A DNA stretch of 27,100 bases from IMG/VR virus record IMGVR_UViG_3300007623_000030, positions 1 to 27,100 of that record; one strand, written 5' to 3'. Origin of the DNA: a virus. Made by a program: the position numbers and the translations under genes. The notes beneath the pieces are model-generated. The model did no database searches. It was not told the DNA's origin and worked only from the letters and a program-made list of their open reading frames with translations. Below, piece after piece: positions 2,582 through 13,727 of this stretch (position 1 is its first letter; every line of letters starts with the position of its first letter).

Positions 2582-4372
2582 TTATCTAGGGAGTGCACCA
2601 TCCAAAGATGAGGTAGGTACAGTTGTAGTGTAGTAGTTTGCTACAGTTGAAGTTGTGTTACCACCGCTATTAACTGTAGTAGGTGCAATAACATTGGCAG
2701 CTGCCTGTCTTGCTTGATTATCTAGCTCGGCTAGTTGTTCAAGTCTTCTACTTTCAATAGCTTTAATTTTTGCATCTAGGTCGCCTGATCGACTGGACAT
2801 TGCTTGACGGGCTGATGCAATATCATCATCGTCTACAATTAAACCACCACCAGGAAGACTGCGGATAACTTCTAGTCCGGCTATCTTAATTCTATCTGGA
2901 ATAGATGCGAACCAATCGCCAAACATTAAGAAGCCACGTTCTAGTTTAGCTTTCAAGTTAATGTACATTTCTTTGCCTGCGATCATGATTCGGTCTGGTA
3001 TACCTGAAATCCAATCTCCAAACTCAGCGAACTTAGTTCTTACAGTATCTACAACACCCGAGAACTTATCTTGTACATATTTCACAGCTACGCCAACGGT
3101 ATCTGCAATGAAGTCTTGAAGCTTAAACGGTTCGTCTTCTTCACTACTGAATCCAAACAAACCTTTAACAAAGTTGATAGCCATGTTAACAGGTGCATAC
3201 ACGAGATCGGTTAATTTGCCAAGGGCGCCAAGTAGTGTCTTGTCTTCTTCTCCGAACGTGAATAAGTCTTTAATTACGTTTATGGCACCTTTGACTCCAT
3301 CAAATATAGAGCCTACAATATCATTGAATAGTTTAGTAAACGAGAATGACTTGATTGATTCTGCTGTATCGGTAAATCCAAGTTTAGATACTACCCAAGC
3401 TACAGCGTCCTTTACTAAGTCCAAAGGCTTAGTGATAAGAGAATTGAAGAAGCCTGTGATAGCGCCTTCTAGTCCTCCTAGAATACCACCTTCGGCATAT
3501 CCATCGATTGCGCCCTTAACTGTATCAAATAGAGTGATGACTACTGCAATTGGAGCAAACAGTTTGCCGACTAGACCAGCTACCTTGCCTATAACGGTTC
3601 CAAGAGACTTAAAGTAGCCTCCAATTCTGGCTGCTATATTCTTAATTCTACTAAGTGGACCACCCTCAGCTGGAGCAAGACCCTTGATAGCTTCGGCTGC
3701 TGATGTGAATAGTTCTGTGATAGGTGCAAAGAATGATTTGAAACTAGCAATTGCTTTGCCTAGTTTACTCTCTTCACCTATACTTAGAAATGATTTGACA
3801 CGCTCCATGCCAGAGGTGACTGCGGTTCGAACAGCCGTGATGCGTTCATTCACTGCGGCTTTGAATAGCTCTAGTTGCATTGCAATGCCTACCCGCAATC
3901 CTCTAAGATTTTTAGATAGAGACTCTGGAGTAAACATCTTTCCAAAAGCTTTTATGGCTTTGAATTGACCAGATAGTATACCTAGTGTTGCTCCTAGAGT
4001 ACCAGCTATTGCAGTGCTAAGTCCTCCTAGTCCACCGAAGACTGCTAAAGAATCTCCTCCTCCTGCTGGGCTTTGAGGAGCGACAGATGGCTTATCTTCG
4101 TCTTTCTTCGGTGCGCTAGTGTCTTTAACTTGTAAGTCGTTGCCTCTGCGCATATCTTCTAGCTGTTCAGCCGATAGATCATTTGCTTTGGCAAGAAGTC
4201 TGCCTATGGTCTGCAACTCTATATTAGTCGCTGATAAAGAAGTCTCTATTGCCTTCAAAACTGGGACAACAGCCTCTTTCACCGACTTGATTGAGTTGGT
4301 GCCTGAATTCCGAGTTAACTTGCCCTCAGCTTGTATGCGGGCGATTAGATCGGGTATTGATGCTTCAGCCAT
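2582..4372 (-). CDS. 29: gp29-like tape measure / tail length determinator
   Basis: A 596-aa helix-rich protein with alternating Ala/Gly-rich hydrophobic segments (about 110-135 and 260-285) and amphipathic helices, as in tape measures. It follows the gp26/gp51 frames, where T4-like phages and the lambda-type layout place the tape measure, and its length is nearly that of T4 gp29 (590 aa). A 33-residue tandem repeat is visible: FGDWISGIPDRIMIAGKE from Phe451 and FGDWFASIPDRIKIAGLE from Phe484. The ribosome-binding site AGGAAG lies inside the end of the preceding gp51-like frame. It is the last gene of the leftward operon. Assignment rests on position, length and composition, not on a diagnostic motif. 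Confidence 0.72.
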   Translation of the reverse strand: MAEASIPDLIARIQAEGKLTRNSGTNSIKSVKEAVVPVLKAIETSLSATNIELQTIGRLLAKANDLSAEQLEDMRRGNDLQVKDTSAPKKDEDKPSVAPQSPAGGGDSLAVFGGLGGLSTAIAGTLGATLGILSGQFKAIKAFGKMFTPESLSKNLRGLRVGIAMQLELFKAAVNERITAVRTAVTSGMERVKSFLSIGEESKLGKAIASFKSFFAPITELFTSAAEAIKGLAPAEGGPLSRIKNIAARIGGYFKSLGTVIGKVAGLVGKLFAPIAVVITLFDTVKGAIDGYAEGGILGGLEGAITGFFNSLITKPLDLVKDAVAWVVSKLGFTDTAESIKSFSFTKLFNDIVGSIFDGVKGAINVIKDLFTFGEEDKTLLGALGKLTDLVYAPVNMAINFVKGLFGFSSEEDEPFKLQDFIADTVGVAVKYVQDKFSGVVDTVRTKFAEFGDWISGIPDRIMIAGKEMYINLKAKLERGFLMFGDWFASIPDRIKIAGLEVIRSLPGGGLIVDDDDIASARQAMSSRSGDLDAKIKAIESRRLEQLAELDNQARQAAANVIAPTTVNSGGNTTSTVANYYTTTVPTSSLDGALPR

Positions 4373-4375
4373 ATG

Positions 4376-4549
4376 TTAGTCTTCCTTTTGGGACTCTATG
4401 TAGTCTATTAACATGTCATAGTATATGTCTCTTTCAAAGGGAAGCAGACTTTCAATTTCACTTATCTGATATTTATGATGCTGTGCTAAGCCAAAAACCA
4501 TTCTATAGTATGATGCCAGAGTGATGTGACTCAGCACTAGATAAAAAAA
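4376..4549 (-). CDS. 51: gp51-like frame, probably made as a -1 frameshift extension of gp26
   Basis: An open frame of 55 codons after the slippery site, ending TAA at 4378-4376, four bases before the tape measure ATG. Its first ATG is at 4501 (41 codons); a GTG is at 4537-4535. Neither has a Shine-Dalgarno sequence, while other genes of this operon do. The sequence reads LASYYRMVFGLAQHHKYQ then ISEIESLLPFERDIYYDML, the compact helical pattern of gp51/tail-chaperone C-terminal extensions. By position it matches T4 gp51, the hub assembly factor (249 aa in T4). Expression as a gp26-gp51 fusion (about 287 aa) is inferred; a short independent protein from 4501 is the alternative. Confidence 0.6.
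   Translation of the reverse strand, partial: FFYLVLSHITLASYYRMVFGLAQHHKYQISEIESLLPFERDIYYDMLIDYIESQKED
4514..4549 (-). promoter_or_regulatory. predicted -1 programmed frameshift site (slippery heptamer plus stem-loop)
   Basis: Reading the - strand, T TTT TTT occupies 4549-4543 with zero-frame codons TTT TTT, then ATC TAG ends gp26. Six nt after the heptamer a stem-loop can form: TGC (4536-4534) with GCA (4516-4514), and GAGT (4532-4529) with ACTC (4522-4519), around a 6-nt loop with a small internal bulge. A -1 slip continues as FF-YLVLSHITLASYY into the gp51-like frame. Heptamer, spacing and open -1 frame are seen; frameshifting is inferred. The stem is modest, and the T7 run could also cause transcriptional slippage. 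Confidence 0.65.
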
Positions 4550-5238
4550 GTTTCGGTTCCTTCAGCAACAAAAGTCTTTTCTTTCCCATCTTTAGTTGTA
4601 TACTTTGCTTCGTATTTCATCTTTGGTATAGTATCAAAGAAGTCACGAATATCATTAATGACTTTAGAATCTAGAGAGTCGATAAACGAATCAACTTCCT
4701 CATCTGTGAAGTCCTTAATTTTGTAAATCGTTTCGTCTTCAATTACAGACTCAATGCATGCCTTCATAACATCGAATAGGGCACTTTCTTGATTCTCCTC
4801 TGAGCCTTGTAGACTGCGAATGAAATCGATTGTTGGGTACTTCATACTCAACTTGATATTATCTGTTACGTCAACCAACTTAGTGTGCTTGTCAGAACGG
4901 ACAATTGTGATATCGTCAACGTTCAAAGACAGTTCGACCTCTTCTTCAGTCTCAGGGTCAATTACCTTGAAAGTCATTTGGTTGTTCACTGCTTTAGCAC
5001 GAATTTGAAGTAGTACATACTCAAGGTCAAATACTGCTAACTTATTAATATCATATCCCTGTAAACAGTTAGTAAGGATTTGCTTAATAGATAGAATCAC
5101 CTGATCTATATCGTTTGACTCTTGAGCAATCAAGAGAATTTTTTCTTCCTTAACTGTAAACGGGCGATATTTTACTTTGTCACCCGATGATGGGATAGTC
5201 AATTCAAATAAGGGTTGACTTATCTTAGGTAATGGCAT
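4537..5238 (-). CDS. 26: gp26 baseplate hub subunit / probable tail assembly chaperone
   Basis: A 233-aa acidic protein (T4 gp26: 208 aa) with the family N-terminus: KISQPLFELTIPSS, then KYRPFTVKEEKILLIAQES, then a region around INKLAVFDLEYVLLQIRAK. This is the T4-type baseplate protein family needed for hub assembly. The ribosome-binding site GGAG precedes ATG 5238. The last codons are ACT TTT TTT ATC TAG, which hold a slippery heptamer, so a minor longer product is expected. It lies directly before the tape measure, the place of gpG/gpGT chaperones in lambda-like phages. Confidence 0.85.
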   Translation of the reverse strand: MPLPKISQPLFELTIPSSGDKVKYRPFTVKEEKILLIAQESNDIDQVILSIKQILTNCLQGYDINKLAVFDLEYVLLQIRAKAVNNQMTFKVIDPETEEEVELSLNVDDITIVRSDKHTKLVDVTDNIKLSMKYPTIDFIRSLQGSEENQESALFDVMKACIESVIEDETIYKIKDFTDEEVDSFIDSLDSKVINDIRDFFDTIPKMKYEAKYTTKDGKEKTFVAEGTETFFI

Positions 5239-5258: not shown

Positions 5259-6029
5259 TTATTTTAAAGATCCGAGAATCGTGTTCACGTCAGTTACGGT
5301 GTTAACTAAGTCCTGTAAATTTCGTGGTCTATTCAAGTTATTTAGTGCTTGCCCAAATGTGTTAGCCGCAGACAAGAATCCTAGAATGCTGTTAGGTGAT
5401 CCGAAGTCGCCTGTCAATTTACCGTTTTCAGTTGCTTCCACTTTGATAGAATCGTATGCAAACTGAACAGGCAATGTTAGAACTTCAGCCGCATTCTCCC
5501 ACGATACAGTCTGATTGCCAACAACGATTGGATATGCATTGTTAAACTTATACTTGTAAGTTTTATCAGTCTGATTCTGCGAATATACTGTCACTTCGAT
5601 AGTACATGCATATTCGTCTCTGTATCCAAATTCGTATGGACGTTGACCGCCATTTACTTCTGATGAATAGCCAGCTTCAACATCATAGTTTACAATTGTC
5701 TGCATCCAACGATGAAAGAATCTAAGTACGCCAAAGTTACTGTCAACCATGAAGACAGTAGGCAAAGGAGCAAGCTCAAACCCCACGGGGCGTTTTTCAC
5801 TTGGACCGTAACCTCTAGGCTTAAAGTCTGCCGTTACAACTTCTACCGCTGGCAAGTCAACGCTCTTACACAAGAAGGTTAGTGACCGAGTATCCATCTT
5901 ACTCGCTTCGACTAGATCGCCTGCGAGTTTCATATTCTGACCCATTTGAATTGTCATAACGAATAGGTTACTCTTAGCTAACCCGTGCTTATTGATTGCC
6001 GCAGTGAAATCTGATATATTAAATGCCAT
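5259..6029 (-). CDS. 54: gp54-like baseplate tail-tube initiator (gp19 tube fold family)
   Basis: A 256-aa protein with tail-tube family features: an N-terminal NLFVMTIQMG strand, RSLTFLCKSVDLPAVEV, then the central FMVDSNFGVLRFFHRWMQTI and late strands TLPVQFAYDSIKVE. The C-terminal tail (LVNTVTDVNTILGSL) resembles the end of T4 gp54 (320 aa), which starts tube polymerisation on the baseplate. It lies between the unassigned 196-aa gene and gp26. The tube terminator gp3 shares the fold and is the main alternative; gp48 is assigned elsewhere in the window, which favours gp54 here. An AGGAT ribosome-binding site precedes the ATG. Confidence 0.65.
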   Translation of the reverse strand: MAFNISDFTAAINKHGLAKSNLFVMTIQMGQNMKLAGDLVEASKMDTRSLTFLCKSVDLPAVEVVTADFKPRGYGPSEKRPVGFELAPLPTVFMVDSNFGVLRFFHRWMQTIVNYDVEAGYSSEVNGGQRPYEFGYRDEYACTIEVTVYSQNQTDKTYKYKFNNAYPIVVGNQTVSWENAAEVLTLPVQFAYDSIKVEATENGKLTGDFGSPNSILGFLSAANTFGQALNNLNRPRNLQDLVNTVTDVNTILGSLK

Positions 6030-10499: not shown

Positions 10500-10847
10500 A
10501 TGTTTACACCTGAAACTGGAATGCAATTACATTGGTTTATCGGCGAAGTTGTCGATAAAGATGATCCCACGAATAGTGGTCGGGTGCGTGTACGTGCTTT
10601 CGGATATCATCCATCATCGAATCCAAACGATCCTAAAATCGATAAGACTGAGAAAGACGAAGTATTTGATGAAGACTTGCCATGGGCATTTGTTGTAAAT
10701 GGAACATACGGTAAAATGATGTGTATTCCTGATGAGGGAGATTGGGTAGTAGGATTCTTTGCTGACGGTAGAGACGCACAACATCCATTTATTATAGGAA
10801 CACTCTATGGTCAGAACATAGACGATAACGGAGCGGCTGATGGCTAA
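10500..10847 (+). CDS. 5: gp5 N-terminal OB-fold protein (spike base), separate gene
   Basis: A 115-aa protein corresponding to the gp5 OB domain (residues 1-129 of T4 gp5). Family features are MQLHWFIGEVVDKDDPTNSG then RVRVRAFGYHP, LPWAFVV, and the closing GDWVVGFFADGRDAQHPFII then GTLYGQN. In T4 this domain attaches the needle to the gp27 hub. The gene ends here, with no lysozyme domain following. GGAG lies before the ATG, and the end overlaps the needle gene by 8 nt in another frame. Confidence 0.85.
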   Translation: MFTPETGMQLHWFIGEVVDKDDPTNSGRVRVRAFGYHPSSNPNDPKIDKTEKDEVFDEDLPWAFVVNGTYGKMMCIPDEGDWVVGFFADGRDAQHPFIIGTLYGQNIDDNGAADG

Positions 10848-11841
10848 AATATCAAAAGACTATCTTGACAACTTTGGAAAGGTACCGATCAGTCCATGGT
10901 TGAGTGGTGAGCAAGCCCATCATACTTCTACTGTTGTTCAAGGCGGTGCAAAGCGTGATAAGATTGAGGGACCTGGTGAACGCACTTGGGCTGAACCTGA
11001 TACAATCTCTCCTTCACGTAGTATGAACACTGTTGTCTTTCAAGCTAAGAATGGCGGTAACTCTGTTGTTATCAATGACGAAGGTTCAGATGGTGATGGC
11101 TATATGCTTATCACTCACAACACAGGTACCGTTGTACAGATAGATCAACATGGTACTGTATTTATTAAATCATTCGGTGATACGTATAACACCACTGAGG
11201 GTATCATGTACCAACGCTCAGACGGTGACACTAATCAGAATGTTGGGGGTGACTGGAACGTAAAAGTAGAAGGTGGCTCTAATAACGTATTTGTACAAGG
11301 TGACGTTAACATCGAATGCGAGAATTACAATTTAGAAGTTCGTGGTAAAGCGACTATCAATGCCGCTGAAGCATTGGAACTACGTGGTGCTAAAGTTTCT
11401 ATCGAAGCACACTCTACTGACATAGACGTAGCTGCGGCTGAAAACGTCCGTCTAGGTGCTTTGTCAGGAAGAATGAGTTTTGTTTCTGAAGCAGATATGG
11501 TACTCAACACGAATGCCATATTGAATGCATTCGGTAAGAGTCAGTTAAATATAGGCTCAGAAGGAATGATCGGCATCAAAAACGATGGAGCGTTTAATGT
11601 TAATTCTGGTGGCAACATAGATATGCTATCTGGTGGAACATCTTATCTTGATGGTAAGGAAGTACGTCTTGGTGAGAACGGCGGGGCGGGTTCAGTTGTA
11701 CCTGCACAACCAGAGCTACCTAAGATGCCTAAACTTAAAGACCCAGAAGCACGTAGACCTTCGCAGAATAGTGAAGCAGGCGTTTCGACTGTTTACCCAT
11801 CGCCTTCACCACATACAGATAGACTTGGAGACGATACCTAA
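10840..11841 (+). CDS. gp5 C-terminal-like beta-helical needle protein
   Basis: A 333-aa protein. From about residue 60 it is a chain of short beta strands with Gly/Asn turns; part has the octad spacing of the T4 gp5 needle (NVGGDWNVKVEGGSNNVFVQ then GDVNIECENYNLEVRG). After about residue 280 it becomes Pro-rich and disordered (VPAQPELPKMPKLKDPEARR). It probably trimerises into the membrane-piercing spike. In T4 this part is joined to an OB fold and a lysozyme on one chain; here it is its own gene. Its start has GGAG and overlaps the OB-fold gene; its stop overlaps the peptidase start (TAATG). Confidence 0.75.
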   Translation: MAKISKDYLDNFGKVPISPWLSGEQAHHTSTVVQGGAKRDKIEGPGERTWAEPDTISPSRSMNTVVFQAKNGGNSVVINDEGSDGDGYMLITHNTGTVVQIDQHGTVFIKSFGDTYNTTEGIMYQRSDGDTNQNVGGDWNVKVEGGSNNVFVQGDVNIECENYNLEVRGKATINAAEALELRGAKVSIEAHSTDIDVAAAENVRLGALSGRMSFVSEADMVLNTNAILNAFGKSQLNIGSEGMIGIKNDGAFNVNSGGNIDMLSGGTSYLDGKEVRLGENGGAGSVVPAQPELPKMPKLKDPEARRPSQNSEAGVSTVYPSPSPHTDRLGDDT

Positions 11842-13727
11842 TGAAGTGTTTTCCTAAAACAACGGCAAGTATCTACGGAGATTATATTCTAGAGACGGGT
11901 TCTGCCCCAAACTTGAATATGTTTGACATTGTTAATAAGCAGAACAATCCTGCCGATAACTACGATACGCAAACGCTACTAGATATCTCAAGTGGACTAG
12001 CGGCTGTTTTGCCAGTAACTAACACCTCTGCATATCCGTATACTGATAGTCGATACAAGCAAGGTCCTATTCTCTTCCCAGAGATAGCTGACTTTCTGAA
12101 TGAGACTGGTCTGAATGCGGAACAGGTTAGTGAAACTCTGAAAGACTATCGTGCTTCAATTCCAGAAGACATTAATGGAGTGATGCCTAATACGCCTAAA
12201 GACGTTGACATTCTTTTAAAGCAATTAGAATTTTACTATGCAGATAACCTTGGTCTAACTATAGCCGGTGGTCTATGTAGTGCCTCAATCAACCCGTTCG
12301 GCAAGCTAGGGGATCTTCTTAGCAAGATAACACTAGCCGGACAGTTGCTTGGTGCGTTACTAGATTTTAACCTAGCTGACATACTTGGACCATTTACTGC
12401 ACTAAAAGCCAAACTTGAAAAGATTGTTGATGAATTAGCCGAGACGCTGAAAGCACAGGTTGATGGTATTGTCAAGTCTGCACAATCATTTGTTAAGAAT
12501 GTGAAAGCAGGCGCTAAGAAGATCAAAAAGAAACTACAGAAAATGGTTTCTAACATTAAGAACTTCTTTTCTGGCGATAGCGTTACTGGCTTGAAAGATA
12601 AGATTGGCGAATTCGTAAGCAAAGCAGTTGATCAGTTCGAAGAAATCACTCCTGCTGTTATCGGTCTTTTGATGTTCCGTTTCTGTCAATTCACAGAAAT
12701 GCTTCAATTGTTTATGTTGTCTCCAGTCAATGTATTGAAAGACTTTATGAGCAAATTGAAAACCGAAGAGGCTGTAGTACGTGATGTTGCTCAAGTACGT
12801 ACACAAGACGCAGTGAATGCTGGCGCAGTACGTATTGATGAGAAAGGCATTCAAGAAGGTAAAGCGAGAATTGTAAAAGCGCAAAACGAACCTTCAATTG
12901 AACGTGACAGTAAGCCTACAGAGTTGCCTGTCGATTTACCAGAACCAGAACACTATGTCGCTTCAGACGATTTGACTGATGCTGAAAACGAAGCACTATC
13001 TGCACTTGGTCCAAGCGGTATGGACGGATACTTGAAGTTTGCGCCTTCTGTGATAAACATGGGCAAGTCAGTAAGTGATGCTGGTCCAAACGCAGGATTC
13101 TCTGAGATTCGAACAGAAGTTATGCAGAAGCTAGTGATTGTAGCAAGACGCATGGGTAAGACTTTGACAATCAACAGTGGATATCGCTCACCAGAATATA
13201 ATGAGCGTATTGGTGGAGCTAAAAACTCTCAACACAAATCTGGTCTAGCAGTTGATATCAGTATGGCAGGATTTAGTGATGACGATATTCGCAACTTCAT
13301 CCGCATTGCTTCTCAAGAAGGTTTCTTAGGAATTGCATATTACACTGGTGGCAACTTCACTCACTTAGACATTGGATCAAGACGCACTTGGGAAAGAGGT
13401 CACAGATTCGACAACTACTTGGCTATGCACTTGCAAGATGGATTCAGAAAAGGTAAAGCCGCACCAGTGCCACCAGTTGAAGAGCCTGCATTGCCTGAAG
13501 GTATTATTGCGGGAAGACGTGGATACATTGTAAAAGCGACTGATCCAACAGGTATGGAAGAAATTACAGTTGTAGCTTCATATGCATCTTTGGACCAAGC
13601 GATAGCTGTTAAGGATGCACTTGAGAATGGTAAAGGATATTCATACACATACAACGATGCTATAAGTGGTAGAAGAGGTCGATTCACTGTAGACGAACTA
13701 GGTAATGCTGAACGACAATTGATATGA
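11841..13727 (+). CDS. tail-associated M15-type peptidoglycan peptidase with coiled coil
   Basis: A 628-aa protein. The segment at about 415-515 is a D-Ala-D-Ala carboxypeptidase / L-Ala-D-Glu peptidase-like M15 domain: INSGYRSPEYNERIGGAKNS, QHKSGLAVDISM with His465 and Asp472, and FTHLDIG with His508, the three zinc ligands. Before it come a long Lys-rich coiled coil (about 180-250) and a hydrophobic helix (about 272-300); after it comes a beta-rich C-terminal tail with repeated GRRG. It lies between the needle and gp25, so it probably opens the cell wall during entry and replaces the T4 gp5 lysozyme. GGAG precedes the start. An endolysin role is less likely given the position. Confidence 0.82.
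   Translation: MKCFPKTTASIYGDYILETGSAPNLNMFDIVNKQNNPADNYDTQTLLDISSGLAAVLPVTNTSAYPYTDSRYKQGPILFPEIADFLNETGLNAEQVSETLKDYRASIPEDINGVMPNTPKDVDILLKQLEFYYADNLGLTIAGGLCSASINPFGKLGDLLSKITLAGQLLGALLDFNLADILGPFTALKAKLEKIVDELAETLKAQVDGIVKSAQSFVKNVKAGAKKIKKKLQKMVSNIKNFFSGDSVTGLKDKIGEFVSKAVDQFEEITPAVIGLLMFRFCQFTEMLQLFMLSPVNVLKDFMSKLKTEEAVVRDVAQVRTQDAVNAGAVRIDEKGIQEGKARIVKAQNEPSIERDSKPTELPVDLPEPEHYVASDDLTDAENEALSALGPSGMDGYLKFAPSVINMGKSVSDAGPNAGFSEIRTEVMQKLVIVARRMGKTLTINSGYRSPEYNERIGGAKNSQHKSGLAVDISMAGFSDDDIRNFIRIASQEGFLGIAYYTGGNFTHLDIGSRRTWERGHRFDNYLAMHLQDGFRKGKAAPVPPVEEPALPEGIIAGRRGYIVKATDPTGMEEITVVASYASLDQAIAVKDALENGKGYSYTYNDAISGRRGRFTVDELGNAERQLI

Follow-up and report, generated by a model that had tools for sequence, protein, structure and literature searches.

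The tail assembly chaperones of T4-like phages were reportedly identified by Vladimirov, Gautam & Davidson (2022, Virology 566:9-15), in a study that is said to name gp26 and gp51. In the passages of later papers that cite it, this study stands as the source for short and fused-long copies (PMC10885494) and for the presence of poly-T slippery sites in the chaperone genes of T4-like phages (PMC12846349). In the lambda gpG/gpGT system and the G-T frameshift of long-tailed phages, a -1 frameshift near the end of the short gene adds a C-terminal extension just upstream of the tape-measure gene (Xu, Hendrix & Duda 2004; PMC5009743), and Atkins et al. 2016 present G-T frameshifting as widely conserved, with T4 excepted (PMC5009743). 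In T4 itself, gp26 and gp51 have been listed as hub assembly chaperones, gp51 is required for assembly and missing from the final particle, and some genetic work put gp26 in the hub (PMC3004832). A conserved -1 frameshift is also reported for the Vandenendeviridae/Andersonviridae (Pseudomonas phage Adele, PMC12846349), where it takes place at GTTTTT in a chaperone gene of a myovirus that had wrongly been annotated as two, although these are other phage families and the motif given there is shorter.

Here we describe the corresponding locus in a 27.1 kb fragment of a T4-like phage taken from a virus record (the window). As far as the citing passages go, it shares with the system of Vladimirov et al. 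2022 the short/long pair and the poly-T slippery site, and it is a new marine member of that system. Judging from the sequence, programmed -1 frameshifting very probably yields short and long tail assembly chaperones from one gp26/gp51 gene. A preliminary description of the window had proposed this fusion and did not know of it as described for T4-type gp26 and gp51; in the light of the passages citing Vladimirov et al. 2022 for T4-like tail assembly chaperones, the frameshift idea is right in substance but not new, and most of the picture is published. New here are at most the three-part signal, the two RNA architectures and the correlation with copy number. In addition, since the mechanism stressed in the title of that study is not frameshifting, the spread of frameshifting found here may be wider than described there, as far as title and citing passages tell.

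Gene order at the gp26 locus

From 7545 to 2582 on the minus strand, the window encodes, in order, a head-closure protein, an endonuclease, a DNA end protector, a tail tube protein, gp26, a small ORF in the -1 frame and the tape-measure protein. The genes at and around the junction are as follows.

5259..6029, minus strand: tail tube/initiator protein (gp54/gp19-like), adjoining gp26 on its upstream side (phrog_45 tail tube, E=8e-34)
4537..5238, minus strand: gp26 homologue (T4_baseplate family PF12322), 233 aa, zero frame, the putative short chaperone form (PF12322 E=2.5e-54; phrog_150 E=5.1e-58)
2582..4372, minus strand: tape-measure protein (gp29-like), 596 aa, directly downstream of the extension (phrog_4200/305/8125 tail length tape measure, E 4e-9 to 2e-8)

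The matches of gp26 to PF12322 and phrog_150 run end to end, and the PF12322 score of 184.7 bits (residues 11-232) stands against a cut-off of 24.5. The order of gp26, small ORF and tape-measure gene is the layout typical of tail-chaperone genes, and the comparison with gpG/gpGT drawn in the preliminary description holds in this respect; the tape-measure ATG (4372..4370) lies three bases past the end of the -1 frame, and not four as given there. Family searches by sequence returned no match to known lambda-type chaperones, and a PDB search by sequence returned no relative. When the predicted gp26 fold (pLDDT 86) was compared with the PDB, the best-probability matches among those listed were 3fgx (0.57) and HK97 2ob9 (0.28), which are non-significant (E 1.4-1.8) and cover the fold in part. 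Both structures are tail assembly chaperones (PMC9603447), and these model-based matches lend weak support to a chaperone role.

Two other regions of the window deserve mention. An edge ORF at 3-680 on the plus strand matches phrog_7278, labelled ferredoxin oxidoreductase and auxiliary metabolic gene (E=5.7e-21), and its neighbours are genes for a late-transcription regulator, a helicase-loader and an ssDNA-binding protein. In the region 10500-13727, also on the plus strand, a short hub gene (10500-10847) matches only the start of gp5 tail-lysozyme profiles, and a 628-aa protein near it (11841-13727) has a peptidase/endolysin-like region; the functions of gp5 seem to be divided among several genes in the window.

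The slippery heptamer at the end of gp26

On the minus strand the 3' end of gp26 reads GAA ACT TTT TTT ATC TAG, and the heptamer within it lies in the phase originally assigned to it.

4543..4549, minus strand: slippery heptamer T TTT TTT in gp26 phase (X XXY YYZ), kept as T6Y/T6G in 109/112 non-redundant gp26 genes

The lambda heptamer is G GGA AAG, as against T TTT TTY here. Across the window's main genes (26.4 kb of coding sequence), TTTTTTT at 4549..4543 is the sole T6Y heptamer, and the other homopolymer heptamers are two A6G runs, both out of phase. To place this site among relatives, gp26 loci were gathered from viral contigs and named phages and clustered at 80% protein identity into 112 genes; single-protein scans of viral contigs with distant gp26 queries gave few loci. 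The set covers cyanophages, pelagiphages and phages of Methylophilales, Caulobacter, Stenotrophomonas, Delftia, Agrobacterium, Sinorhizobium, Vibrio (Schizotequatrovirus) and Aeromonas. The preliminary description had allowed that the T7 run might not be conserved in relatives, and the distribution observed is the opposite: in 109 of the 112 genes a heptamer lies in phase close to the stop and the -1 frame is open (TTTTTTC in 66, TTTTTTT in 42 and TTTTTTG in one), as at programmed -1 frameshift sites, and in 103 genes the heptamer sits exactly one codon ahead of the stop. The stop of phage Mosig is displaced by 24 nt downstream and the heptamer is retained, which argues that selection acts on the slip site rather than on the position of the stop.

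One may argue that, in an AT-rich genome, the T run reflects nothing more than the conserved Phe-Phe with which gp26 ends, and Phe-Phe is indeed conserved in the protein, T4 included. However, codon usage predicts TTT as the first Phe codon in 72/109 genes and a T-ending preceding codon in 57/109, while both are observed in 109/109, and the joint chance of this combination in all 109, calculated from each gene's own codon usage, is about 1e-58. Moreover, only 1/111 internal X-Phe-Phe sites in the same gp26 genes has the slippery form, and T4-type gp26 genes, which need no frameshift, do not retain the heptamer. Codon bias was accordingly rejected as the source of the heptamer, and the chance that no recoding is involved is close to nil. 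Within 76 kb of the gp26-set genes, only four further heptamers occur.

Transcriptional slippage, which would add or drop a base on the T7 run and make the fusion without ribosomal frameshifting, can point to the seven consecutive T's of the window. It was rejected because most relatives have T6C: in 66/109 the run is six T's followed by C, and a six-T run is too short for efficient slippage by known bacterial polymerases. In addition, it needs neither in-phase placement nor the SD-like element and downstream stem described below, and we consider it exceedingly improbable. Ribosomal frameshifting is the reading that we retain.

The heptamer varies at a few sites. In Sinorhizobium phage phiM9 the gp26 end has T TTT TTG (Phe-Leu), the sole such case among the 109, where pairing after slippage would be weaker. 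Two Ackermannviridae phages (Menlow and BSP101) and Vibrio phage D509 have one PF12322 gene in the same layout and an open, gp51-like -1 frame but no canonical heptamer; their sites read GAG ATT TTC ATT TAA or TCA CTT TTC AAG TAA, and the heptamer is therefore not universal. In these three phages slippage seems to follow another mechanism or to use another site; one tRNA slipping alone at TTC may be the case.

Flanking elements and the -1 frame

The -1 frameshift signal of E. coli dnaX consists of a Shine-Dalgarno (SD)-like element about 10 nt upstream, a homopolymer heptamer and a stem-loop about 5 nt downstream, and the same three-part layout is found around the heptamer of the window.

4558..4563, minus strand: SD-like GAAGGA, 8 nt upstream of the heptamer, a probable frameshift stimulator (anti-SD energy -5.7 kcal/mol)
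4538..4542, minus strand: 5-nt spacer ATCTA between heptamer and stem, holding the first two bases of the zero-frame TAG at 4539..4537 (sequence and fold)
4527..4537, minus strand: 5' arm of the downstream stem, GTGCTGAGTCA (fold of the window strand; homologous stem in 36 relatives)
4483..4493, minus strand: 3' arm of the downstream stem, TGGCTTAGCAC (fold; homologous stem in 36 relatives)
4376..4543, minus strand: -1 frame extension, gp51-like, 55 codons and TAA, predicted to read TETFF|YLVLSHITLASYY... after slippage (phrog_634 E=1.2e-20)

An SD-like tetramer ending 8-10 nt before the heptamer is present in 104/109 relatives, and it pairs more strongly with the 16S tail than synonymous nulls do (mean -6.97 vs -5.49, sd 0.15). 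Downstream, the stem of the window has 11 bp and an MFE of -21.1 kcal/mol (z = -3.8 vs dinucleotide shuffles); the stem-loop of the preliminary description thus exists, although it starts 5 nt rather than 6 nt after the heptamer. A homologous stem with compensatory changes, relative to which that of the window is partly shifted in register, occurs in 36 relatives, starting about 5 nt downstream of the heptamer and closing a loop of about 38 nt. In these relatives, 87.6% of cells in columns 13-23/62-72 are paired, against 24-42% when the columns are slid, and 24 cells are changed on both sides, a count that, like the covariation score, was reached by 0/500 shuffles. It is also the best of 2850 possible 9-bp stems, with 94% paired against a mean of 38%.

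The stem of the window clade was not found in cyanophages, which instead fold a compact region with unusual stability within the first 40 nt; one universal downstream stem is thereby ruled out. In both clades, stretches of 75 nt fold with a mean energy about 10 sd lower than under a null in which synonymous codons are permuted within columns (z about -10), a large effect, although shuffle and permutation nulls of this kind leave the relatedness between sequences in place. Constraint beyond protein coding is shown at the site, and a stimulatory RNA structure a few nt downstream of the heptamer, as expected of a -1 frameshift site, is seen both in the covarying stem and in the folding energies. 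An Rfam search at the site returned no known RNA family. The signal differs from that of dnaX in having a U-run in place of an A-run and, in the window clade, a stem that closes a loop of about 38 nt; moreover, the shift in dnaX shortens the product whereas the shift here would lengthen it. The upstream SD-like element and the downstream stem also set the window apart from lambda.

The -1 frame is open from the slip to the TAA at 4378..4376, for the 55 codons originally counted, and its gp51-like character is borne out by the match of the small ORF to phrog_634, labelled 'baseplate hub assembly catalyst' (gp51), and by alignment to residues 201-252 of T4-type gp51 (hhalign prob 96.7%, E=4e-10). 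An example of the predicted fusion peptide is GTETFFYLVLSHITLASYY, and the conserved gp51 sequence begins immediately after the slip.

Database annotations assume that gp51 is a separate small gene. Ribosomes would then re-initiate on a start codon that coincides with the end of gp26 or closely follows it, where the window reads TAGTG and some relatives TAATG, and many records do list gp26 and gp51 as distinct genes. In the -1 frame, codon 2 is ATG in 22/109 relatives and codon 3 in 30/109, and the window has a GTG at codon 2. However, neither the position nor the identity of the start is conserved: among 95 aligned relatives, the first 14 codons of the -1 frame, which are conserved, contain no ATG in 35 and none of ATG, GTG and TTG in 19. 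The synonymous share of differences over these codons is 0.33-0.42 in the -1 frame, against 0.11-0.18 in the other frames. SD strength at candidate gp51 starts is about that of background or random positions, which agrees with the earlier remark that the extension of the window lacks an SD-preceded start and goes against a clear start with a ribosome-binding site in relatives. A separate gp51 gene with its own start was rejected because starts are not conserved and lack an SD; it would further leave unexplained the heptamer, the SD-like element (whose spacing is wrong for initiation) and the occurrence of T4 gp51 as a full fusion, and we regard it as very unlikely.

To the earlier remark it should be added that the GTG of the window (4537) shares bases with the stop codon of gp26 (TAGTG), and that translation of a 53-aa protein from it is conceivable. 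As a rule, GTG starts in this position have no Shine-Dalgarno sequence and are not conserved across relatives, so that a small chance is left for the one in the window as a minor start. An ATG within 7 codons of the slip, in some cases overlapping the stop, occurs in about half of the relatives, and coupled re-initiation could add some separate gp51 to the product of frameshifting. In the public records compared (L001-L005 and L088-L105), the gp51 part is given inconsistent starts, with genes of about 93 to 183 nt that often lose conserved residues; this is a systematic annotation error.

One gene or two for the probable chaperone pair

PF12322 is matched along the length of T4 gp26 (208 aa) as well as of T4 gp51 (249 aa), and the family matched by the extension of the window is also matched by the final portion of T4 gp51. 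Direct BLAST of the extension against T4 gp51 gave no signal and profile comparison was needed, in which the gp26-gp51 fusion made in silico could be aligned with T4-type gp51 over its entire length (hhalign E=1e-24). Taken by itself, the extension matches the gp51 C-terminus only, and not gp26. By these alignments T4 gp51 consists of a gp26 homologue followed by the C-terminal domain also seen in the window extension, in keeping with the earlier suggestion that the T4 genes are split equivalents of the pair. Copy number follows this division: among 26 records searched, exactly one PF12322 gene is present in 20/20 one-gene phages (17 with the heptamer and three Ackermann-type) and exactly two in 6/6 T4-type phages. 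The heptamer is absent from the short gp26 of all six T4-type phages, and T4 gp26 retains Phe-Phe, written TTC TTT.

In an unrooted tree, the long gp51 copies form one well-supported group and the frameshift genes another. Because frameshifting is so widely spread, we infer that duplication replaced it and not the reverse, a direction that the unrooted tree itself does not set. In Klebsiella phage KP15 (L228, 2001-3295), genes 51 and 26 are arranged in tandem and share a strand, while the T4 pair is divergent; the KP15 arrangement is possibly closer to the original duplication. A broader reading, to which we give somewhat less than an even chance, is that the tail chaperone gene of the T4-like superfamily has an ancient recoding signal of three parts, similar to that of dnaX and hitherto undescribed. 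Its RNA architecture would differ between two clades, with a compact hairpin in cyanophages and, in the window clade, a long-range stem around a 38-nt loop, and the signal would have been discarded once, at the duplication into T4 genes 26 and 51.

Under the mechanism proposed here, most ribosomes would halt at the gp26 stop and give the short form, while a minority, held up by the SD-like element before the heptamer and the stem after it, would slip -1 on T TTT TTT and continue in the -1 frame to give gp26-gp51, the long form. If the pair acts as gpG/gpGT does in lambda, the short form may coat the tape-measure protein and the long form may recruit tail tube subunits, both departing before the virion is complete; T4 and its near relatives would obtain the same pair from separate genes, the short form from gene 26 and the long form from gene 51. 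It is the occurrence and efficiency of slippage and the chaperone action that we infer here. Two forms that share an N-terminus and are encoded just upstream of the tape measure, as in the layout of the window, with two-gene equivalents in T4, are characteristic of a lambda-type pair, and layout, forms and homology are consistent with gpG/gpGT-type tail assembly chaperones.

Most T4-like phages outside the T4 branch thus probably make both chaperones from one gene, in which case many records wrongly annotate 'gp51' as a separate gene with an arbitrary start. The superfamily offers a natural comparison between frameshifting and gene duplication as routes to setting the chaperone ratio.
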